Positions 733-41,622 of a stretch of DNA of 41,622 nucleotides are shown here, in pieces; positions within the stretch are counted from its first letter, which is position 1; the number at the start of each line of letters is the position of its first letter. The stretch is taken from assembly GCA_016192425.1 (NCBI GenBank), contig JACPUE010000042.1, positions 1 to 41,622 on the forward strand, written 5' to 3'. A program made the translations under genes and the position numbers. Under the pieces are notes generated by a model. That model searched no databases and had not been told where the DNA came from. It saw only the letters and a program-made list of their open reading frames with translations. This stretch comes from Burkholderiales bacterium (lineage in GTDB: Bacteria; Pseudomonadota; Gammaproteobacteria; Burkholderiales; Burkholderiaceae_C).

Positions 733-2058
<1,326 letters not shown>

Positions 2059-2112
2059 TTGCTATCAAATTAATAGCTTATAACGCTTTGTGGGTGGGCG
2101 CTGAAGCCATTT
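2059..2112 (+). repeat. Palindromic repeat, copy A (degenerate)
   Basis: Begins right after the kinase stop codon. It shares TTGCTAT..AA....ATAGCT, a GGGCGCT block and a GCC-A-T-rich end with the copy at 29007-29077, in the same spacing. The central palindrome is degraded here. The rest of the 260-nt gap before the yebC-like gene contains no recognisable gene. Confidence 0.6.
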
Positions 2113-2318
2113 TTCCATTGTTCTGCCAAAAAAATAGGTGATACACACCGCGATGGTCGCCACCACCCCAGCCATTTTCGCTTTGCCCGCATTTGCCTTG
2201 TTCGCCGAGGCTTCTGGCGGGTGTATAACCACACCCCTCGGGCCTTGCGCATGTGCGTGGCCCATCCCCCGATACGGCCCGCCACACTGGCGCGCCACAA
2301 CACCAAGGAACACGCAAG

Positions 2319-3032
2319 ATGGGCGCGCAGTGGAAGGCAAAAGGCAAGGCACAGGTAGCCGACGCCAAGGGCAAATTGTTTGGCAAGCTGGTCAAGGAAA
2401 TCCTGGTCGCCGCGCGCGGCGGCGCGGATCCGGCCACGAATTCGCGGCTGCGCCTCGTGGTCGAGCAGGCCCGCAAGGCCTCCATGCCCAAGGACACGCT
2501 GGAGCGGGCCATCAAGAAGGGTTCGGGCACGGGCAGCGAGGCGGTGCACTACGAACATGTGACCTACGAAGGTTTTGCGCCGCACCGTGTGGCCGTGATG
2601 GTCGAATGCCTGACGGACAACGTGAACCGCACAGCGCCCGAAATGCGCGTGCTGTTCCGCAAGGGGCAGCTGGGCACTTCGGGCTCGGTGGCGTGGGACT
2701 TTGACCATGTGGGCCTGATCGAGGCCGAGCCCGCCACTGCGGGCGCTGACCCAGAGGTGGCTGCCATCGAAGCGGGTGCGCAGGATTTCGAGCCAGCGGA
2801 CGAGGAGGGCGCCACCTTGTTCATCACCGACCCCACAGACCTCGACCTGGTGAGCCGCGCTTTGCCTGCCCAGGGCTTCACGGTGCTGTCGGCCAAGCTG
2901 GGCTACCGGCCGAAGAACCCGGTGAATCCCGCAAGCCTGAGTGCGGAGCAGTTGGAGGAAGTGGAAACCTTTCTCACCGCCATCGATGCCAACGACGACG
3001 TACAGAACGTGTACGTCGCGCTGGCGGGCTGA
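2319..3032 (+). CDS. yebC: YebC/PmpR-family DNA-binding regulatory protein
   Basis: A 237-residue protein starting [10 protein letters not shown], with [13 protein letters not shown], a [11 protein letters not shown] segment and the acidic insert [12 protein letters not shown], all typical of the YebC/PmpR/TACO1 family (usually ~240-250 residues). Family members bind DNA as transcriptional regulators, and some have been linked to translation of proline-rich stretches. Which role applies here is not visible. The ATG at 2319 is preceded by AAGGA at 2304-2309 and gives the family-typical N-terminus. The TGA stop lies inside the 5-bp duplicated target of the MITE-like element that follows. The insertion therefore left the reading frame intact. 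Confidence 0.92.
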
Positions 3033-3033
3033 G

Positions 3034-3297
3034 AACGTGTTCATGATCTTTTCATGGTGCCCGTTGCCCCACAAAAGGGGCAGATGCCAGGCGCAAAGCG
3101 CAGCCGGGCTGGTGGCCCGGCGAGCATTTGTAACGCTGCAGATGCCCCTTTTGTGGGGCAACCCTTCGGGCAAGGCAGCAAAAAGCCGCACTCGTCGTTG
3201 CGCGCCTTGTCCAGGCCACCAGCATGGACTGCGGCACGCGCCTCGATTGCGGCTTTTTGCTGCCTTGCGGGCTCCATGAAAAGATCATGAACACGTT
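3034..3297. mobile_element. MITE-like non-autonomous element with 24-bp perfect terminal inverted repeats
   Basis: A 264-bp element. Its first 24 bases (3034-3057) are the exact reverse complement of its last 24 (3274-3297), and pairing extends to 30 bp with one mismatch. Both sides are flanked by CTGAG (3029-3033 and 3298-3302), which fits a 5-bp target-site duplication. Inside are two further inverted repeats: 3063-3081 with 3144-3162 (19 bp) and 3171-3190 with 3248-3267 (20 bp, perfect), plus a GCCGGGC hairpin at 3103-3121. No plausible transposase frame exists, so it would need a transposase in trans. The parent insertion sequence is not recognised. Confidence 0.75.
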
Positions 3298-3424
3298 CTG
3301 AGTGGGCCTGAGTTCACCCATGCGTTCAGCCTGCCGTTGACACTAGCCGATCCCCGCTTCAATCAAGTGCCGACCCTACCGGGTTGTCTTTGGGCGGGTG
3401 TTTGGGCAGGAATGCAACCCGCCA

Positions 3425-5145: not shown

Positions 5146-7431
5146 ATGAAGTTTCGTTTTCCCATCATCATCATTGACGAGGATTACCGCTCCGAAAACA
5201 CTTCGGGGCTGGGTATCCGTGCCCTGGCGCAGGCGATCGAGGCCGAAGGCTTTGAGGTGCTGGGCGTGACCAGCTATGGCGATCTGAGCCAGTTTGCCCA
5301 GCAGCAAAGCCGTGCCAGTGCGTTCATCCTGTCGATCGATGACGAGGAGTTCACGCCGGGGCCGGATCTGGACCCGGCCGTGCTGAGCCTGCGCACCTTC
5401 ATCGAAGAAGTGCGGCGCAAGAATGCCGACGTGCCTATCTATGTGCACGGCGAGACCAAGACCAGCCGCCACTTGCCCAACGATGTGCTGCGCGAGCTGC
5501 ATGGCTTCATCCACATGTTCGAGGACACGCCCGAATTCGTGGCGCGCCACATCATCCGCGAGGCCAAGAGCTACCTGGAGGGCATTCAGCCGCCGTTCTT
5601 CCGCGCCTTGCTGGACTATGCCGAAGACGGGTCGTACAGCTGGCACTGCCCGGGCCATTCGGGCGGCGTGGCTTTTCTCAAGAGCCCGATCGGCCAGATG
5701 TACCACCAGTTCTATGGCGAAAACATGCTGCGCGCTGATGTGTGCAATGCGGTGGAAGAACTGGGCCAACTGCTGGACCACAACGGCGCCATTGGTGAGA
5801 GCGAGCGCAATGCTGCGCGCATCTTCAATGCCGACCACTGCTTCTTTGTGACCAACGGCACCAGCACGTCCAACAAGATCGTGTGGCACCACACGGTGGC
5901 GCCCGGCGACGTGGTGGTGGTGGACCGCAATTGCCACAAGTCGGTGCTGCACTCCATCATCATGACCGGCGCGGTGCCGGTGTTCCTCAAGCCTACGCGC
6001 AACCACTACGGCATCATCGGGCCGATTCCGCAGGGGGAGTTCGAGCCTGCGTCCATCCAGGCCAAGATCAAGGCCAATCCGCTGCTCAAGGGCGTGGATG
6101 CCAAGAAGGTTAAGCCGCGCGTGCTTACGCTCACGCAGTCCACCTACGACGGTGTGCTTTACAACACCGAGACCATCAAAGACATGCTGGATGGCTATGT
6201 GGACAACCTGCATTTTGACGAAGCCTGGCTGCCGCACGCGGCTTTCCACCCGTTCTACGGCACCTACCACGCCATGGGCAAGAAGCGCGCACGCCCCCAG
6301 CATTCGGTGGTGTATGCCACGCAGTCCATCCACAAGCTGCTGGCGGGCATCAGCCAGGCCAGCCATGTGCTGGTGCAGGATTCGCAGACCACCCAGCTGG
6401 ACAGGCACCTCTTCAACGAGGCCTACTTGATGCACACCTCCACCAGCCCGCAGTACAGCATCATCGCAAGCTGCGACGTGGCTGCTGCCATGATGGAGCC
6501 GCCCGGCGGCACCGCGCTGGTGGAAGAGAGCATTCTGGAGGCCCTGGACTTCCGCCGCGCCATGCGCAAGGTGGACGAGGACTTTGGCAAGAACGATTGG
6601 TGGTTCAAGGTCTGGGGGCCTGAAGAACTGGTGGACGAGGGTATCGGCAAGGCCGAGAGCTGGATCTTCCGCAGCAGCAACGGCAAGAGCCGCCGCAAGA
6701 ATGCCTGCTGGCACGGTTTTGGCACGCTGGCCGACGGCTTCAACATGCTCGACCCGATCAAGTCCACCGTGGTCACGCCCGGCCTCAACCTGGACGGCAG
6801 CTTCGACAAGACCGGCATTCCTGCGTCCATCGTCACCAAGTACCTGGCCGAGCATGGCGTGGTGGTCGAAAAGACGGGGCTCTACAGCTTCTTCATCATG
6901 TTCACCATCGGCATCACCAAGGGCCGCTGGAACACGCTGCTGACCGCGCTGCAGCAGTTCAAGGACGACTACGAGAAGAACCAGCCCATGTCGCGCATCC
7001 TGCCCGAGTTCTGCCAGCAGCACCGCCGCTACGAGCGCATGGGCCTGCGCGACCTGTGCCAGCACGTGCACCAGCTCTACGCCAAGTACGACATTGCGCG
7101 TCTGACGACGGATATCTACCTGTCCGACCTCACGCCAGCGCTCAAGCCCTCAGACGCCTATGCGCATATCGCCCAGCGCAAGACCGAGCGCGTGGAGATC
7201 GACCAGCTCGAAGGCCGCATTACCGTGGGCCTGATCACGCCGTACCCACCCGGTATCCCGCTGCTGGTGCCGGGCGAGGTGTTCAACAAGAAGATCGTGG
7301 ACTACCTCAAGTTCGCCCGCGACTTTGCGCTCATGGCGCCGGGCTTTGAAACCGACATCCACGGCCTGGTGGAAGAGGTGGACGCGCAGGGCCATGTGCG
7401 TTACTACGCCGACTGTGTGGCCCAGGGCTGA
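5146..7431 (+). CDS. PLP-dependent basic amino acid decarboxylase (Arg/Lys/Orn, biodegradative type)
   Basis: A 761-residue fold-type I decarboxylase. An N-terminal response-regulator-like wing domain (1-140, PIIIIDEDYRSENTS) precedes the PLP core: HCPGHSGG (167-174), TNGTSTSNK (236-244), HFDEAW with Asp358 contacting the pyridine nitrogen, and ATQSIHKLLAG with Lys397 as Schiff-base lysine. A C-terminal domain follows. Length and motifs match AdiA/CadA/SpeF-type enzymes, which decarboxylate Arg, Lys or Orn to the amine and CO2. Substrate cannot be fixed by eye. No antiporter gene is adjacent, unlike classic acid-resistance systems, so a polyamine role is equally possible. The ATG at 5146 has CGGAGG 6 nt upstream. 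Confidence 0.9.
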   Translation: MKFRFPIIIIDEDYRSENTSGLGIRALAQAIEAEGFEVLGVTSYGDLSQFAQQQSRASAFILSIDDEEFTPGPDLDPAVLSLRTFIEEVRRKNADVPIYVHGETKTSRHLPNDVLRELHGFIHMFEDTPEFVARHIIREAKSYLEGIQPPFFRALLDYAEDGSYSWHCPGHSGGVAFLKSPIGQMYHQFYGENMLRADVCNAVEELGQLLDHNGAIGESERNAARIFNADHCFFVTNGTSTSNKIVWHHTVAPGDVVVVDRNCHKSVLHSIIMTGAVPVFLKPTRNHYGIIGPIPQGEFEPASIQAKIKANPLLKGVDAKKVKPRVLTLTQSTYDGVLYNTETIKDMLDGYVDNLHFDEAWLPHAAFHPFYGTYHAMGKKRARPQHSVVYATQSIHKLLAGISQASHVLVQDSQTTQLDRHLFNEAYLMHTSTSPQYSIIASCDVAAAMMEPPGGTALVEESILEALDFRRAMRKVDEDFGKNDWWFKVWGPEELVDEGIGKAESWIFRSSNGKSRRKNACWHGFGTLADGFNMLDPIKSTVVTPGLNLDGSFDKTGIPASIVTKYLAEHGVVVEKTGLYSFFIMFTIGITKGRWNTLLTALQQFKDDYEKNQPMSRILPEFCQQHRRYERMGLRDLCQHVHQLYAKYDIARLTTDIYLSDLTPALKPSDAYAHIAQRKTERVEIDQLEGRITVGLITPYPPGIPLLVPGEVFNKKIVDYLKFARDFALMAPGFETDIHGLVEEVDAQGHVRYYADCVAQG

Positions 7432-7496: not shown

Positions 7497-7560
7497 GATG
7501 CTATGAAAACAATAGCTGCTAGCGTTTGATTTATAAGCGCTGGCAGCTATTTTTGCTTGT
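7497..7560 (+). repeat. Palindromic repeat, copy B (best preserved palindrome)
   Basis: Reads TGATGCTATGAAAAC then AATAGCTGCTAGCG, a 13-nt AT-rich loop, and CGCTGGCAGCTAT followed by T. It lies between the convergent decarboxylase and fabI genes. It is the clearest member of the family also seen at 2059, 13753, 25005 and 29007. Confidence 0.8.
7512..7555 (+). terminator. Terminator-like hairpin formed by repeat copy B
   Basis: A 13-bp stem with one mismatch (7512-7524 with 7538-7550) followed by TTTTT; in the other direction the stem is followed by TTGTTTT. Placed between converging genes it could stop transcription from both sides. Function is inferred from structure only. Confidence 0.6.
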
Positions 7561-7573
7561 GGCTCTTTGTAGG

Positions 7574-8374
7574 TCAGACCTGGTCTGCCGACAGCCCTGC
7601 CGTTTGGCTGAATCCACCGTCCACGTAGGTGATTTCGGCGGTGACGCCCGAGGCCAGGTCGGACAGCAGGAACGCAGCGACATTGCCCACGTCCTCAATG
7701 GTCACGTTGCGGCGCAGGGGCGAGGCGTCGGCCACGCGCGAGAGCAGCTTGCCGAAGTCCTTGATGCCGCTGGCGGCCAGCGTCTTGATGGGGCCGGCGC
7801 TGATGCCGTTGGCACGAATGGCGCGGCCGTCCGCAGTGCGGCCCACGGCCTCGGCCAGGTAGCGCACGCTGGCCTCCAGGCTGGCCTTGGCCAGGCCCAT
7901 GGTGTTGTAGTTGGGGATGGAGCGCAGCGCGCCCAGGTAGCTCAGCGTCAGCAGCGAAGACTTGTCGTTCAGGTAGGGCAGGGCCGCCTTGGCCATGGCC
8001 GGGTAGCTGTAGGCGCTGATGTCGTGGGCGATGCGGAAGCTCTCGCGCGAGAGGCCGTCCAGGAAGTTGCCGGCAATGGCCTCGCGCGGCGCGAAGCCGA
8101 TGCTGTGCACGAAGCCGTCGAATGTGCCCCAGGCATCGCCCAGGCCCTTGAACATGGCTTCGATCTGCGCGTCGTCGGCCACGTCACAGTCGAACACCAG
8201 CGTTGAATTGAACTCGGCGGCGAACTCGGTGATGCGGTCCTTGAAGCGCTCGCCCACGTAGCTGAACGCCAGCTCGGCGCCCTGCGCGTGGCAGGCCCGG
8301 GCGATGCCGTAGGCGATGGAGCGGTTGGACAGAACGCCCGTGATGAGCAGTTTTTTACCGGACAGAATGCCCAT
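7574..8374 (-). CDS. fabI: Enoyl-[acyl-carrier-protein] reductase (NADH), FabI
   Basis: A 266-residue short-chain dehydrogenase-type enzyme catalysing the last reduction of each fatty acid elongation cycle. The N-terminus [21 protein letters not shown] is the FabI nucleotide-binding signature. The catalytic residues fall at Tyr146, Tyr156 and Lys163 ([19 protein letters not shown]), the same numbering as E. coli FabI. The ATG at 8374 has AAGGAG about 8 nt upstream. It is divergent from yejA with only 71 nt between start codons, so the two promoters must be close or overlapping. It is the target of triclosan in other bacteria; no resistance change at the active site was looked for. Confidence 0.96.
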
Positions 8375-8445
8375 TGTTGTTCTCCTTGGGGTGGTGAGTG
8401 CCATGGCGCCTGGAAACGGCGCGGTACGTAAGGCAGAATTGTCGC

Positions 8446-13223: not shown

Positions 13224-13225
13224 AC

Positions 13226-13320
13226 ACCCCCCTGAGTCGCTTCGCGCCTTCCCCCCTCTCTCGGCTTCGCCGGGAGGGGGGACGCCGCCAGCGCGGCGGG
13301 GCGGCCCTTGCGCGGCGTCC
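13226..13320. repeat. GC-rich dispersed repeat between yejE and yejF
   Basis: Starts CCCCCCTGAG and contains a CCCCCCTCTC...GGGAGGGGGG hairpin. The 25 bases at 13296-13320 match 27346-27370 at 23 positions (core GCGGGGCGGCCCTTGC). Both copies also begin with the CCCCCTGAG block. No gene is seen in this 166-nt gap. Confidence 0.6.
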
Positions 13321-13389: not shown

Positions 13390-15036
13390 ATGAGCCTCCC
13401 ACTCCAACCCCCGTCCTTGTCCACCCCGCTGCTGGAGGTGCAAGACCTTTCGGTGCGCTTTGGCGCCAAGGAGGTGGTGCGCGGCGTGGGCTTCGACATC
13501 GCGCCGGGCGAAAAACTCGCGCTGGTGGGCGAATCCGGTTCGGGCAAGACCATCACGGCGCTCAGCCTGCTGCGCTTGGCGGGTGAGGCGAAAATCACCG
13601 GCCAGGCCTTGCTGCGCGGGCGCGACCTGCTCTCCTTATCGGAGCGCGAGATGCGCGGCGTGCGCGGCGGCGAGATTGCCATGGTGTTCCAGGAGCCCAT
13701 GACGGCGCTGAATCCGCTCATGACCATCGGCCAGCAGATCACCGAGGTTTTGGAGCTGAAAAAGGCTCTAACTCCCGCCCAGTCTGCGCAAGCAGCTATT
13801 GAATTGCTAGCAAAAACCGGCATTCCCGAGCCCCAGCGCCGCGCCAATGCCTTTCCGCACCAGCTCAGCGGCGGCCAGCGCCAGCGCGCCATGATCGCCA
13901 TGGCCCTGGCCAGCGAGCCCGCGCTGCTGCTGGCCGACGAGCCCACGACTGCGCTCGACGTCACGCTGCGCGGCCAGATCCTCGATTTGCTCTCGGAGCT
14001 GCAGCGCAAAGGCAATGCGGGGGAGGGCATGGCCGTGCTGCTCATCACGCACGACCTGAACCTGGTGCGCCGCTTCGCCGACCGCGTGGCCGTGATGGAG
14101 CAGGGCGTGCTGGTGGAGCAGGGGCGTGTGGACGAGGTGTTCCGCGCGCCGCAGCACCCCTACACCCAGCGCCTCATCGCCAGCCAGCCCCGGCGTGACG
14201 TGGTGGAAGGCACGCTGCCCGAAGGCACCGCCCCCGTGGTGCAGGCGCAGAACCTGCGCGTGGTCTACCCCACGCCGCTGCCCGGCATCCGGGGCTGGTT
14301 CCACAAGGGTGAATTCGTCGCCGTGCAGGGCGCCACGCTGCAACTGCCGCCGGGCCGCACGCTGGGCGTGGTGGGCGAATCGGGCTCGGGCAAGTCCACG
14401 CTGGCGCTGGCCATTCTGGGCCTGCTGCCGCACGGCGGTGAGCTGGCGGTGGCGGGGCAGGGCTGGCAGCAGCCCGCCACGCGCAACACCCCCGCCAACC
14501 AGCAACTGCGCCGCCAGGTGCAGGTGGTGTTCCAGGACCCGTTCTCCTCGCTCTCGCCGCGCCTGACGGTGGAGGAGATCGTGGGCGAAGGCCTCCAGGT
14601 GCACGAGCCCGCGCTCGACATGGCCGCCCGGCGCGGGCGTGTCGAAGCCGCGCTGGCCGAGGTGGGCCTGACCGAGGACCAGTTTCCCGGCCTGCTGGCG
14701 CGCTACCCGCATGAGTTCTCCGGGGGGCAGCGCCAGCGTCTGGCGGTGGCGCGTGCACTGATCGTGCAGCCGCGCGTGCTGGTGCTCGACGAGCCCACCA
14801 GCGCGCTCGACGTCACCATCCAGCAGCAGGTGCTGGGGCTGCTGCAGCGCCTGCAAAAGGACAAGGGATTGAGCTACCTGCTCATCACGCATGACGTGGA
14901 TGTGATCCGTGCCATGGCGCACGAGGTGCTGGTGATGAAGGATGGCGCCGTGATGGAGCAGGGCAGCGTGGGCCAGGTGCTCGACGCGCCGCAGCACCCC
15001 TACACGCAACGGCTGGTGGCGGCGGCGGCGGCTTAG
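13390..15036 (+). CDS. yejF: Peptide ABC transporter ATP-binding protein with two ATPase domains, YejF type
   Basis: A 548-residue fusion of two ABC ATPase domains energising YejB/YejE. Domain 1 has Walker A GESGSGKT (47-54), signature LSGGQRQR and Walker B LLLADEPT. Domain 2 has a second [16 protein letters not shown] and VLVLDEPTS. Each ends with the oligopeptide-transporter tail [10 protein letters not shown]. The ATG at 13390 gives the family start MSLPL; the frame is open to 13198 but that stretch is repeat DNA. Residues about 122-143, between Walker A and the signature of domain 1, are encoded by copy C of the palindromic repeat, in frame and with no obvious gain in length relative to E. 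coli YejF as I remember it. Confidence 0.93.
13753..13817 (-). repeat. Palindromic repeat, copy C, inside yejF
   Basis: In reverse orientation to the gene. GCGCAAGCAGCTAT (13786-13799) is identical to copy E in truB (25032-25045). In both copies GGCTCT lies exactly 16 nt before this block, and a TAGYAA tail follows. The frame reads ...[16 protein letters not shown], sharing the peptide QAAI with truB. Confidence 0.7.
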
Positions 15037-24135: not shown

Positions 24136-24513
24136 ATGCCAGCCAAGAAAAGCACCACGCCCAACCGCGCCTTCAAAGTCGCCGACCAGATCCAGCGCGA
24201 TCTGACGGAGCTGATCGCACGCGAGTTGAAGGATCCGCGCGTAGGCATGGTCACGCTGCAAGGGGTGGAAGTCACGCCCGACTATGCGCACGCCAAGGTG
24301 TTTTTCAGTGTGCTGGTGGGCGACCCTGCCGCCACGCAGGAGGCGCTCAACCATGCAGCCGGTCATTTGCGCAATGGCCTGTTCAAGCGCCTGCATATCC
24401 ACACGGTGCCCACGCTGCATTTTGTGTACGACCGCACGCAGGAGCGCGCGGCCGACATGAACGCACTGATCGCCAAGGCCGTGTCCTCGCGGGCCAAAGA
24501 CACGGAAGAATGA
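24136..24513 (+). CDS. rbfA: 30S ribosome-binding factor A
   Basis: A 125-residue protein with the RbfA KH-type fold: [25 protein letters not shown], then [14 protein letters not shown] and the C-terminal [22 protein letters not shown]. It binds the 30S subunit during late maturation and cold adaptation. It starts 6 nt after the signal peptidase gene, and its stop overlaps or abuts the truB start. Confidence 0.96.
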
Positions 24514-24515
24514 CC

Positions 24516-25508
24516 ATGGACGCACCGCGCACGAGGGTCGTCCGGCGCCCCGTGCATGGGGTGCTGCTGATCGACAAGCCGCTGGGCATGACCAGCAACC
24601 AGGCCCTGCAAAAGGCCAAGTGGTTGCTGCGCGCCGAAAAGGCGGGCCACACCGGCACGCTCGACCCGCTGGCCAGTGGCGTGCTGCCGCTGTGCTTTGG
24701 CGCCGCCACCAAGTTCAGCCAAATCCAGCTCGAAGCCCCCAAGACCTATGAGGCCGTGGCCCTGCTGGGCGTGACCACGTCCACCGGCGATGCAGAGGGC
24801 GAGGTGCTGGAGCGCAAGCCGGTCGATCTGGCAGCCTTGACGCCGCAGAAACTCGCCGCTGTGCAGGCGCAGTTTACTGGCCCCATCCGCCAGGTGCCGC
24901 CCATGCACAGCGCGCTCAAGAAGGATGGCAAGGCGCTGTACGAATACGCCCGCGCAGGCCTGACTGTGGAACGCGCGCCGCGCGATGTCACGATTCATGC
25001 ATTGAATCTGGCTCTGACGCAGACTGAGCAAGCGCAAGCAGCTATCAAAATCATAGTAACCTGCAGCAAGGGCACCTACATTCGCACGTTGGGCGAGGAC
25101 ATTGGTGCCGCGCTGGGTTGCGGGGCGCACCTCGTCTTCCTGCGCCGCCTGGATACCGGCGGCATCGGCGTGCAGCGCTGCCTGACGCTGGAGCAGCTCC
25201 AAGCGCTGGACGACGATGCGCGCCTGGCGCGCCTGGAGCCCCCCGATGTGCTGCTGGCCGACCATGTACGTGTCACGCTCGACAACGACAATGCCGGGCG
25301 GTTCCTCTCCGGCATGCGCCGCCGTGGGCGCTGGGAAGATGCTGCCGCCGTGGCTGTGTATGGCGACCAACCCCGCGTGCTGCTGGGGGTGGGCCATGTG
25401 CAGGGTGGCGAACTCATCCCCGACCGGCTGCTGAGCCCTCTCGAAATCCAACAAATCATTGAAACCCTGCCGCGCGCCACCGCCTGCGGCCCAACGGAAG
25501 CACCATGA
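24516..25508 (+). CDS. truB: tRNA pseudouridine(55) synthase
   Basis: A 330-residue TruB. It makes pseudouridine 55 in the T-loop of tRNAs. Visible motifs: GVLLIDKPLGMTSNQAL, GHTGTLDPLASGVLPLCFG with catalytic Asp50, RQVPPMHSALKKDGKALYEYAR and CSKGTYIRTLGEDIG. Start 24516 has GGAAG at a suitable distance; an ATG at 24510 overlapping the rbfA stop is the alternative. Residues about 164-181, just before CSKGTYIRT, are encoded by repeat copy E. This makes the local strand-loop about four residues longer than E. coli TruB as I recall it. The stop overlaps the typA start (ATGA). Confidence 0.95.
   Translation: MDAPRTRVVRRPVHGVLLIDKPLGMTSNQALQKAKWLLRAEKAGHTGTLDPLASGVLPLCFGAATKFSQIQLEAPKTYEAVALLGVTTSTGDAEGEVLERKPVDLAALTPQKLAAVQAQFTGPIRQVPPMHSALKKDGKALYEYARAGLTVERAPRDVTIHALNLALTQTEQAQAAIKIIVTCSKGTYIRTLGEDIGAALGCGAHLVFLRRLDTGGIGVQRCLTLEQLQALDDDARLARLEPPDVLLADHVRVTLDNDNAGRFLSGMRRRGRWEDAAAVAVYGDQPRVLLGVGHVQGGELIPDRLLSPLEIQQIIETLPRATACGPTEAP
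25005..25060 (-). repeat. Palindromic repeat, copy E, inside truB
   Basis: In reverse orientation to the gene: GGCTCT (25010-25015), 16 nt, then GCGCAAGCAGCTAT (25032-25045), the same spacing and block as copy C in yejF, then AATCATAGTAA. The frame reads LALTQTEQAQAAIKI. Confidence 0.7.
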
Positions 25509-27461: not shown

Positions 27462-28358
27462 ATGAATACCCATTCTTTTCCAAACCGAGGGCTGACCCAT
27501 ACCCGTGCCGTATGGCTCATGGTGGCGGTCACGCTGATGTGGTCGATTGCCGGGGTGGTCACGCGGCACCTGGAGCATGCGCGCAGTTTCGAGGTGACGT
27601 TCTGGCGCAGCCTGTTCACGGTGCTGTCGCTGCTGGTCATATTGCCGGCGGTGCAGGGCAGGGCGGCACTGGCGACCTTGCGTGGCGGGGGACGGGCGCT
27701 GTGGCTGTCGGGCCTGTGCTGGAGCGTGATGTTCACCGCCTTCATGGTGGCCATCATGCTCATGCCGGTGGCCAATGTGCTGGTGACCATGGCCGTCGGC
27801 CCCTTGCTCACGGCGCTGTTTGCCTGGGCCTTTATCGGGCACCGCATTGCGCCGCGCACCTGGGGTGCCATTGTGGTGGCGGGGCTGGGCATTGGCTGGA
27901 TGTACGGCACGCAGATGGCGGGCCTGCCGGTGGTCGGCACGCTGGTGGCCTTGTGCGTACCGGTGGCTGCCGCCGTGAACTGGACGGTGGTGCAGCACGC
28001 GCAGCAACACGGCCATGCGGTCAACCTGATGCCTGCGGTGCTGATTGGCGCGGTGCTGTCGTCGCTGGCCACCTTGCCGCTGGCTTGGCCCTTGCAGGCC
28101 ACGGGGCATGACCTTGCTTTGCTGGCCTTGCTGGGCCTGGTGCAACTGGCGGTGCCTTGCGTGCTGGCCGTGCGCTGCGGCCAGGTGCTCAAGGCGCCGG
28201 AGCTGGCCTTGCTGGGCCTGCTGGAAGTGATTTTTGGCATTCTGCTGGCCTGGGTGGGCGCCGGGGAGCGTCCGGCCCAGGCGGTGCTGATGGGCGGCGC
28301 GCTGGTGATTGGCGCGCTGGTGTTCAACGAGCTCTTGGCTTGGAAGGAAGAAAAATGA
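27462..28358 (+). CDS. DMT-superfamily (EamA) transporter
   Basis: A 298-residue membrane protein with about ten hydrophobic segments in two EamA repeats (about 15-150 and 155-290). The first repeat shows MVAVTLMWSIAGVVTRHL and FWRSLFTVLSLLVILP. Family members export or import small metabolites and amino acids; the substrate cannot be read from the sequence. The last codons overlap the next gene by four nt (ATGA at 28355-28358). It is thus translationally coupled to an acyl-CoA hydrolase-like enzyme, which may point to a shared branched-chain metabolite; that is inference. Confidence 0.88.
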   Translation: MNTHSFPNRGLTHTRAVWLMVAVTLMWSIAGVVTRHLEHARSFEVTFWRSLFTVLSLLVILPAVQGRAALATLRGGGRALWLSGLCWSVMFTAFMVAIMLMPVANVLVTMAVGPLLTALFAWAFIGHRIAPRTWGAIVVAGLGIGWMYGTQMAGLPVVGTLVALCVPVAAAVNWTVVQHAQQHGHAVNLMPAVLIGAVLSSLATLPLAWPLQATGHDLALLALLGLVQLAVPCVLAVRCGQVLKAPELALLGLLEVIFGILLAWVGAGERPAQAVLMGGALVIGALVFNELLAWKEEK

Positions 28359-29446
28359 TGGAGATGAACGGTGAAGTGCTGGCCCAGGTGCGCGGGCAGG
28401 TGGGGCTGATCACGCTCAACCGCCCCAAGGCCCTCAATGCCTTGTCGCTGGGCATGGTGCGCGACCTGATGACGGTGCTGCTGGCCTGGCAGCAAGACCC
28501 TGCCGTGCTGGCCGTGGCCATCCGGGGCAGCAACAAGGAAGGGCCGTTCGGCGCCTTCTGCGCGGGCGGCGACATCCGCTTTCTGCACCAGGCAGGCAGC
28601 ACGGGCAACCCGGAGATCGAGGACTTCTTCACCGAAGAGTACGCGCTCAACCATCTCATCCACAACTACGGCAAGCCTTACATCGCCTTCATGGACGGCA
28701 TCGTCATGGGCGGCGGCATGGGCATCAGCCAGGGCGCCAGCCTGCGGCTGGTGACCGAACGTACCAAGATGGCCATGCCTGAGACGGCCATCGGCCTGTT
28801 CCCCGACGTGGGCGGCGGCTACTTCCTCTCGCGCTGCCCCGGCCATGTGGGCGAGTGGCTGGCGCTGACCGGCGACACCATCGGCGCGGGTGACGCCATC
28901 GCCTTCGGCTTGGCCGATGGCTGCCTGCCGCTGGACGTGCAGGCCGCTGTGTGGGATGCGCTGGGGACGCAATCCTTTGCCGACGGCGCCGCCGTGCAAG
29001 CCTTTGTTGCTACAAAAATGATAGCTGCTGGCGCTCAATTGACGGGCGCTAGAGGCCAAATTGACAAATATTTTTCTCTGGCGGATGTTCCCGCCATCGT
29101 GGCCGCGCTCGAAGCCGCAGACAGCGACTGGGCACGCACCGCGGCGGCCACGCTGCGTAAGCGCTCGCCGCTGATGCTGCACGTGGTGCTGGAACAAATC
29201 CGCCGCGCGCGTGGCATGGACCTGGCGGCAGACCTGCGCATGGAGCGCGACATGGTGCGCCACTGCTTCTTCCTGCGCCCGGGCCAGAGCGAGACCGTGG
29301 AAGGCATCCGCGCCCTGGCCGTGGACAAGGACCACAGCCCGCGCTGGAACCCTACGCGCATCGAGGAAGTGTCGCCCGAACTCGTGGCCCAGTTCTTCGA
29401 GAGCCCCTGGCCGGCGCATGCGCACCCGCTGGCCACGCTGCGCTGA
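28355..29446 (+). CDS. Enoyl-CoA hydratase/isomerase family protein, 3-hydroxyisobutyryl-CoA hydrolase type
   Basis: A 363-residue crotonase-fold enzyme with the C-terminal extension of the HIBYL-CoA hydrolase branch. Motifs: LNRPKALNALSLGM (CoA binding), FCAGGDIR and GIVMGGGMGIS (oxyanion loop), MPETAIGLFPDVGGGYFLSR with Glu143 and Asp151 in the positions used by HIBYL-CoA hydrolases. The expected reaction is hydrolysis of 3-hydroxyisobutyryl-CoA in valine breakdown. The start at 28355 overlaps the transporter stop. Residues about 218-241 (VATKMIAAGAQLTGARGQIDKYF) are encoded by repeat copy D, in frame; they lie past the catalytic core, so the enzyme may tolerate them. Confidence 0.9.
   Translation: MMEMNGEVLAQVRGQVGLITLNRPKALNALSLGMVRDLMTVLLAWQQDPAVLAVAIRGSNKEGPFGAFCAGGDIRFLHQAGSTGNPEIEDFFTEEYALNHLIHNYGKPYIAFMDGIVMGGGMGISQGASLRLVTERTKMAMPETAIGLFPDVGGGYFLSRCPGHVGEWLALTGDTIGAGDAIAFGLADGCLPLDVQAAVWDALGTQSFADGAAVQAFVATKMIAAGAQLTGARGQIDKYFSLADVPAIVAALEAADSDWARTAAATLRKRSPLMLHVVLEQIRRARGMDLAADLRMERDMVRHCFFLRPGQSETVEGIRALAVDKDHSPRWNPTRIEEVSPELVAQFFESPWPAHAHPLATLR
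29007..29077 (+). repeat. Palindromic repeat, copy D, inside the HIBYL-CoA hydrolase-like gene
   Basis: TTGCTACAAAAATG then ATAGCTGCTGGCGCT, a short loop, GGGCGCTAGAGGCCAAATTGAC and an A/T-rich end. It is in the same orientation as the gene and visibly AT-rich against its GC-rich flanks. It aligns base by base with copy A over about 55 nt. Confidence 0.75.
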
Positions 29447-41491: not shown

Positions 41492-41610
41492 GACCGGCAT
41501 ATTGGAGCCACTTGATGATCGGCGTATAGGCGCCACCCGCTGACCGGCGTATTGGAGCCAAGACGTGATCGCCGTAATGGAGCCAGTCGCGGATCGGCGT
41601 ATTGGAGCCA
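41492..41610. repeat. Array of five 25-bp-period direct repeats (iteron-like)
   Basis: Copies start at 41492, 41517, 41542, 41567 and 41592. Each has a 19-bp conserved unit GAYCGGCGTATTGGAGCCA with at most three changes, then a variable 6-nt spacer. No further copy is in phase to the left or at 41617, so the array appears complete. It is upstream of the AlpA-type gene. Confidence 0.85.
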
Positions 41611-41622
41611 TCGGCCCGGCAA

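Follow-up and report, generated by a model that had tools for sequence, protein, structure and literature searches.

A 65-bp motif dispersed through Comamonadaceae genomes, a candidate DNA-uptake-type recognition sequence

Background

Rickettsia palindromic elements are dense repeats that lie inside and between genes, use stop-free frames and, as insertions, lengthen the host protein. The REP and BIME repeats are short and palindromic, reach high copy numbers in both orientations and are associated with RAYT transposases. A third family, BRE, is described, as far as the accessible text goes, as 75-91 bp long with a mean GC content of 69%, partly in tandem and present in 1-29 copies (PMC3110155).

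Dispersed sequences of another kind, the uptake sequences that mark DNA for transformation, have been described for Pasteurellaceae and Neisseriaceae (PMC1939737, from the part available). The Pfam family PF16732 (ComP_DUS) is that of ComP, the neisserial receptor of the DNA uptake sequence (DUS), and the accessible text reports that the ComP tree largely tracks the DUS dialects (PMC3630211). In Verminephrobacter eiseniae, natural transformation is reported to depend on type IV pili and to show signs that uptake is sequence-specific, and Acidovorax temperans was transformed by DNA of its own species only; the available text names no signal in either case (PMC4212676). In 2017, Table 7 of another study listed as potential novel motifs the pair GCTTAT(N)5AAGCG in Acidovorax ebreus (114 copies) and the pair ATAGCT(N)22CAAAAG in Polaromonas naphthalenivorans (125 copies), both mostly intergenic; the accessible part argues against transcription initiation and otherwise assigns no function (PMC5217627).

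Here we describe a motif that occurs five times in 41,622 nucleotides of DNA from a Burkholderiales bacterium, the whole stretch being called the window. Searches of the open-licence literature returned neither the core string of the motif nor anything joining Comamonadaceae with palindromic interspersed repeats or with a DNA uptake sequence, and for Acidovorax with REP and for ComP with Comamonadaceae there was no relevant title among the matches listed.

Results

The five window copies are lettered A to E. Copy A (2059..2123, plus strand) begins directly after the stop codon of a protein kinase gene (733-2058) and scores 62.0 bits with the 65-nt matrix described below; by a second profile, R1, it is the weakest of the five (2058-2115, plus strand, 31.8 bits). 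Copy B (7498..7562, plus strand; by R1 7498-7560, plus strand, 55.9 bits) lies between two convergent genes, for an Orn/Lys/Arg decarboxylase (5146-7431, plus strand) and an enoyl-ACP-reductase-like SDR (7574-8404, minus strand). The other three are inside genes. Copy C (13749..13813, minus strand; by R1 13749-13814, minus strand, 43.1 bits) occupies a double ABC transporter ATPase gene (13390-15036, plus strand), and copy E (24995..25059, minus strand; by R1 24995-25060, minus strand, 45.1 bits) lies in the TruB_N-matched stretch of truB (24510-25508, plus strand), where it reads as ...EQAQAAIKIIVT. Copy D (29007..29071, plus strand; by R1 29006-29071, plus strand, 59.1 bits) lies in an ECH_2-family gene (28355-29446, plus strand) and reads as ATKMIAAGAQLTGARGQIDKY. 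R1 was built from 29 sequences, window copies B to E among them, and copy A is the sole window copy that it found independently of its training set. All five were recovered; the best other independent match reached 5.4 bits, and all others above 6 bits are the five copies echoed on the reverse strand.

Other repeats share the window. At 3029-3302, two 35-nt inverted repeats, 94% complementary and 204 nt apart, stand at the end of a gene that ends at 3032; the unit appears MITE-like or may be the remnant of an IS, and even when up to 8 mismatches were allowed, its arm had no other occurrence in the parts sampled from this genome and from the relatives G002, G022 and G003. A second dispersed repeat, GC-rich, is found at 13225-13309 and at about 27348 (AAGGGCCGCCCC, with CACCCCCCTGAG at 13225); its 12-mer occurs 20 times in 842 kb of this genome and 5 times in 400 kb of G022, and is absent from G002 and G003, of which 400 kb was searched in each case. 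Near the window end, positions 41492-41616 hold 25-nt tandem repeats of the GACCGGCGTATTGGAGCCA type.

Beyond the window we sampled 40 stretches of 20 kb from the same genome (3.67 Mb in 68 contigs), 841,622 bases in all with the window. An ungapped 65-nt matrix trained on the genome's own hits (information 52.6 bits over 65 positions) gave 110 copies in this sample at a threshold of 18 bits, none when the sequence was reversed, and just 6 further matches at 8-18 bits. Extrapolated, this amounts to about 480 copies per genome, or about 13 per 100 kb, and merging overlapping inverted pairs leaves 107 sites. Independently of any profile, the 14-mer core ATAGCTGCTAGCGC occurs 173 times genome-wide with at most one mismatch, compared to once for the reversed pattern, and R1 finds at least 150 copies in the whole genome, each at E<1e-8. 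A supposed copy in ribD that had been seen by eye (L370:2572-2636) had no R1 match and was dropped. In the overlapping inverted pairs at L090:5443-5551 and L080:5595-5702, the two members have the palindromic left arm in common and are shifted by 43-44 nt. The sequence-only reading of this DNA had described a dispersed palindromic family with at least five copies, fixed spacing and both orientations, two copies being intergenic and three genic. Its account holds up well: all five copies are real (31.8-59.1 bits by R1), inner spacing is constant among plus and minus copies, the gene calls agree on A and B as intergenic and C, D and E as genic, and the family, dense and often in genes, is in large excess over control sequence.

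The consensus is approximately TTGCTATnAAAwTn-ATAGCTGCTaGCGC-TTnnnnnnnAAGCGCTaGAGGCCaATTTTnnnTTnAAA. The right arm is usually GCGCTAGAGGCC, which mirrors the left arm in degenerate form and so makes the element asymmetric, and the copies have a mean GC content of 46% (0.35-0.65). Across the 110 copies the complementary arms show no covariation (z -0.5), and therefore pairing as such does not appear to be the conserved property; this is what would be expected of a double-stranded site. At gathering thresholds, Rfam matched tRNA alone in the window, and the motif copies there had no match to a known RNA family. An RNA or hairpin as the conserved object was rejected on these two results.

To place the copies we used a gene finder of our own based on codon pairs (92% coding). 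Of the 110, 47 are contained completely or nearly so in genes, 39 are intergenic and 24 run across gene ends. The sequence-only reading had proposed counting copies inside and between genes and the frames used, and frame preferences do emerge: antisense copies in genes are in phase 2 in 19 of 24 cases and sense copies in phase 1 in 16 of 23, and these frames encode AQAAIK-like or AIKxIAASA-like segments. Among the 63 non-genic copies, 33 start between -25 and +20 nt from a same-strand stop codon and 20 end beside an opposite-strand stop; 41 do either. Non-genic copies also fold into hairpins better than in-gene copies (z -2.4 vs. -1.0 over simple shuffles, p 3e-5). Between guaB and guaA (identified by Pfam in G003), G022 has a copy of the motif where this genome, G003 and G002 keep a terminator-like hairpin before guaA.

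In three genes, conservation of the motif DNA exceeds what synonymous recoding would give, even as the encoded segment of the protein drifts. Orthologs were picked irrespective of the motif and recoded with the codon usage of this genome, which biases AT-rich outgroups upward. Those that keep the motif score 39.6-70.4 bits for TruB (18 orthologs), 27.4-70.1 for the ECH_2-family protein (23) and 27.4-65.0 for the ABC ATPase (15); they show zero length change, and each lies above all 200 of its synonymous recodings. For the ECH_2-family gene, the 19 genus members with the motif score 39.7-70.1 bits against recoding means of -21 to 0, the observed value never being reached, and identity within the genus is 0.36-0.77 in the motif segment and 72-95% over the whole protein. 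TruB and the ABC ATPase behave in the same way, with the motif weak or gone in some species (for the ATPase, G003 at 11.6, G018 at 27.4 and G013 at -7.7 bits). Recoding the genome's own copies, of which 46 of 46 in genes beat recoding, was discarded as evidence, since these copies had been selected by score and the test is circular.

The motif stands at the same position in most of the genus, in 14 of 15 TruB, 19 of 21 ECH_2-family and 15 of 19 ABC ATPase orthologs besides our own. Motif-free orthologs of the three genes, including those of G002 and G004 (the TruB comparison took in G002 alone of the two), have no indel at the site. The TruB copy recurs at its site in Polaromonas, two Rhodoferax and one MAG; many motif-free relatives have a TruB loop of equal length, and in more distant families it is about 4 residues shorter. 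Identical positions in relatives had been named beforehand, as simple conservation, among the results that would count against the sequence-only reading. Many copies do share their position, but simple protein conservation does not describe them, as the DNA is kept while the protein drifts.

A wider comparison of protein lengths took in 91 in-gene copies (from this genome, G022, G003 and seven named loci), and found a comparable ortholog for 45 of them and an ortholog free of the motif for 37; orthologous copies of several species count separately. Relative to the closest motif-free ortholog, the difference was 0 residues in 20 of 37 comparisons and at most 2 in 25, although 3 of the 37 rest on distant homologs of about 30% identity. 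Eight comparisons were intermediate, with a change of 4-13 residues, and four showed an insertion-like step in which the motif-free ortholog is 21-25 residues shorter; these four represent two genes, one of them in three species. Where both orthologs carry the motif, lengths were equal in 101 of 103 comparisons. Flanks of 11 copies mapped to G002 were unchanged in 3 cases, had a 62-63 bp gap in 2 and showed other changes in 6. In coding sequence, then, the motif evolves in place and in preferred frames, with two genes as exceptions, and a mobile element was rejected as the general case because motif-free orthologs are mostly of the same length, the two genes remaining insertion-like. The likeness to Rickettsia palindromic elements drawn in the sequence-only reading therefore stands for density and in-gene copies and in general fails for protein lengthening.

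With stricter filters, R1 matched 40 of 100 relatives, all in one family: 24 of 26 genomes of the genus had at least one match (23 had at least 50), as did 16 of 34 in the same family outside the genus and 0 of 40 in other families. The earlier remark that such sequences abound in Comamonadaceae agrees with this and with matches at 7 of 80 named infB loci, including Rhodoferax, Polaromonas and Comamonas, the named infB relatives being mostly Comamonadaceae and other Burkholderiales. R1 had no match in G002 (99% complete) or G007 (84%) and just 6 weak ones in G004, and in 400 kb of G002 the 65-nt matrix gave a single match of 27.1 bits. In a five-protein tree built without G004 and G007, G002 groups with the motif-rich G001 and G009 (supports 0.990 and 0.997; 0.174 for the G002-G001 pair). 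Nested in this way among motif-rich members of the genus, G002 is best read as having lost the motif, a loss that left no indels at three genes but gaps at some other sites.

Two possible accompaniments of this loss were tried and rejected. The 10-, 11- and 12-mers over-represented in 400 kb of G002 were CRISPR-type repeats and composition-like words rather than a replacement dialect. Lost competence machinery does not appear to be the cause either, as ComEC (PF03772) is present in G002 and G004; it was not found in G007, which is 84% complete, and a PF00114 pilin was found in all three. The G002 stretch (L259-L278, G002:C14:1-400000) contains two CRISPR-like repeat sets, with 11-mers that occur 32 and 39 times, which we take to be of types I-E and I-F.

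We also examined ComP-type pilins. PF16732 has one match in our genome (79.8 bits), a homolog at G000:C32:43503-43940 between genes matching PilY1 and RibD; compared to PDB sequences it matches type IV pilins, none named ComP among the 19 matches listed. When it was used as the query against the 100 relatives, 20 scored at least 144 bits (clade A, a cut-off set after the score gap was seen), the next 123 and then 109 or less. All 20 clade-A relatives have motif matches, G004 with just its 6 weak ones, and for G002 and G007 the search found nothing but a distant paralog, which reads as PilE-like. Among family genomes at least 90% complete, clade A occurs in 16 of the 25 that are motif-rich and in 1 of the 23 that are motif-poor (Fisher 1.3e-5), and by genus in 5 of 13 vs. 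0 of 22 (p 0.004); outside our own genus, best ComP scores also differ between motif-rich and motif-poor genera (p 8.7e-5). Kinship was controlled with TypA alone, for which the two groups of genera were alike in closeness to the query (p 0.81). Within motif-rich genera, motif strength follows ComP score with rho 0.61 (p 0.036, n 12), compared to rho 0.44 for TypA (p 0.15). Homologs of PilY1 (at least 40% identity to our own) and RibD flank the pilin in 13 of 25 loci, some loci being too short to include both. Presence of the motif is thus associated statistically with one clade of ComP-type minor pilins. However, the motif-rich G009 has another pilin type adjoining ribD, and 9 of the 25 motif-rich genomes at least 90% complete are without clade-A ComP.

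The motif is depleted in foreign and mobile DNA. No copy was found in 250 kb of conjugative plasmid DNA (five 50-kb pieces from Rhodoferax ferrireducens and Polaromonas naphthalenivorans), where 32.7 were expected from the density in our own genome, although the motif of those two species may differ; one query had no match among 50,697 phage records. In G003, the longest region poor in the motif spans 85 kb and includes TrbE/TrbI-type conjugation genes and, next to guaA, an integrase gene; it has 1 copy vs. 14.8 expected, a contrast inflated by the choice of the largest gap. The exception is the integron cassettes of plasmid pYKBP039 (LC623924.1; L320:3225-5020), the one plasmid record matched, with one query. 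In its class 1 integron region, six copies in the same orientation each sit in a tandem repeat unit roughly 319 bp long, together with an attC-like pair, CTAACG ... GTTAGAC, seen by eye; the cassettes possibly come from a Comamonadaceae-like source.

Spacing in our genome and G022, which have many sites in common, is more even than chance (CV 0.78 vs. 0.99 for random placement, p 0.0007) and close pairs are rare, whereas in G003 it is uneven (CV 1.28). The best 150 matches in G003 are spread along the whole chromosome with no strand trend (strand range p 0.30) and no clear trend with coordinate (origin and terminus positions not fixed). An oriented replication signal seems unlikely given the lack of a strand pattern among these 150, the origin not being placed.

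Discussion

The likeness of this motif to described uptake sequences, the ComP-type pilin and the reports of transformation together lead us to hold it as a candidate DNA-uptake-type recognition sequence (DUS/USS-like) of unusual length, with a probability of about 0.6. A fuller proposal, to which we give even odds, is that Comamonadaceae have a candidate uptake system of their own, in which a 65-bp double-stranded motif is read by the ComP clade encoded between pilY1 and ribD, drive writes the motif and receptor replacement erodes it. A type IV pilus minor pilin of clade A would bind the motif on extracellular DNA, and fragments with a good motif would be taken up and recombined more often. 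Such drive could build and preserve matches wherever they are tolerated: in protein loops, through the few frames free of stop codons, and at the ends of genes, where the palindrome may double as a terminator. Once the receptor was replaced, copies would erode, as they may have in G002, with G009 perhaps caught before erosion.

Several results argue against the uptake reading. With 65 bp and 52 bits, the motif lies far above known uptake sequences and is longer than any known to us. G002 and G004 have kept ComEC and a PF00114 pilin, and 400 kb of G002 holds no replacement dialect. The copy that stands in place of the guaB-guaA terminator in G022 would need a one-step import, and the two genes with a 21-25-residue step, like the 62-63 bp gap at 2 of 11 G002 sites, look like insertions. 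The uneven spacing in G003 also speaks against it, and G009, G004 and the nine motif-rich genomes without clade A do not fit it simply.

The main rival is a binding site for a chromosome-organising protein (nucleoid-associated, domain-boundary or segregation), with sites every 7 kb or so kept by purifying selection and vanishing when the protein is lost. A long, partly symmetric element without arm covariation, its occurrence all along the G003 chromosome among the best 150 matches, the even spacing in our genome and G022, and in-place conservation with lineage loss would all suit such a site. However, it does not predict the link to a ComP pilin clade, and G003, in which origin and terminus are not placed, shows no strand or position trend; we consider it unlikely. 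Somewhat less likely again is a mobile palindromic element of the Rickettsia, REP or MITE type, whose spread took place in an ancestor and which has since become a fossil. The steps of 21-25 residues in two genes and the gaps at 2 of 11 sites are what insertion would leave, and the G022 guaB-guaA copy missing in our genome, G003 and G002 and the many copies at gene ends also favour it. But 25 of 37 in-gene comparisons change by 2 residues or fewer, copies in orthologs keep their DNA sequence, which is not expected of a fossil, and the aligned cases, few and many of them poorly aligned, include no cleanly empty site that shows target duplication. Nor is there a Y1 transposase match (PF01797) in our genome (5 of 14 control genomes had one) or any copy in the 250 kb from two plasmids.

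Two further explanations seem to us quite improbable. The motif could be primarily an intrinsic terminator or another RNA hairpin turned repeat family, since 33 of 63 non-genic copies lie near a same-strand stop and 41 touch a stop at either end, non-genic copies fold better and one copy (G022 guaB-guaA) replaces a terminator; however, 47 of 110 copies, in either orientation, are inside genes, and there a terminator should be harmful; nor do the arms covary. At gene ends, a role in termination is still likely, as a by-product. A Chi-type recombination or repair signal would account for a dense chromosomal motif with copies in genes, but the motif follows no strand trend along G003, and known Chi sites are short.

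If the uptake reading is true, the motif would be a third case of an uptake sequence, long and structurally different, and so an independent test of receptor-motif co-evolution and of the capacity of drive to place 50 bits in coding DNA. It could also account for the sequence specificity that has been reported for transformation in Verminephrobacter and for the presence of such segments in about 200 proteins (extrapolated from 47 in 23% of the genome). Since the genus holds both motif-rich and nearly motif-free species, the uptake reading is directly testable there.

Compared to Rickettsia palindromic elements, the motif has similarly dense, palindromic and in-frame copies (47 of 110 in genes), but the length of the host protein is mostly unchanged. 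It shares a palindromic structure, high copy number and both orientations with REP and BIME repeats, and differs in having no Y1 transposase match, 47 of 110 copies in genes and a length of 65 bp. BRE repeats, found in Bordetella and Comamonadaceae, likewise lie partly inside genes, but the motif's mean GC content of 46% and several hundred copies set it apart from the accessible description of BRE, by description and not by letters (PMC3110155). The motif is not entirely without precedent, as pieces of it were published, unexplained, in 2017: the A. ebreus pair fits element positions 26-41 and the P. naphthalenivorans pair fits the core with a variant right arm, although the accessible part of that paper holds neither the full element nor in-gene conservation, lineage loss or a receptor (PMC5217627).

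The closest comparison remains that with the neisserial DUS and the Pasteurellaceae USS. The 65 bp and 52 bits found here contrast with motifs of 10-12 bp in the accounts available for those systems, and a short core of about 9-12 bp, usual for DUS/USS though perhaps not defining, is replaced by 65 positions. Our motif has about 480 copies, compared to almost 1,500 given in the available text for Neisseria, belongs to another bacterial family and is a candidate uptake sequence. In other respects the accessible descriptions agree with what we find: hundreds to thousands of chromosomal copies (PMC3630211, PMC2346458), here on both strands, in and between genes, many in-gene copies with a bias of frame or orientation (PMC2346458) and a reported bias to gene ends and terminators (PMC3630211, PMC2346458). 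As in the DUS system, a ComP-family minor pilin is present in the genome that carries the motif.
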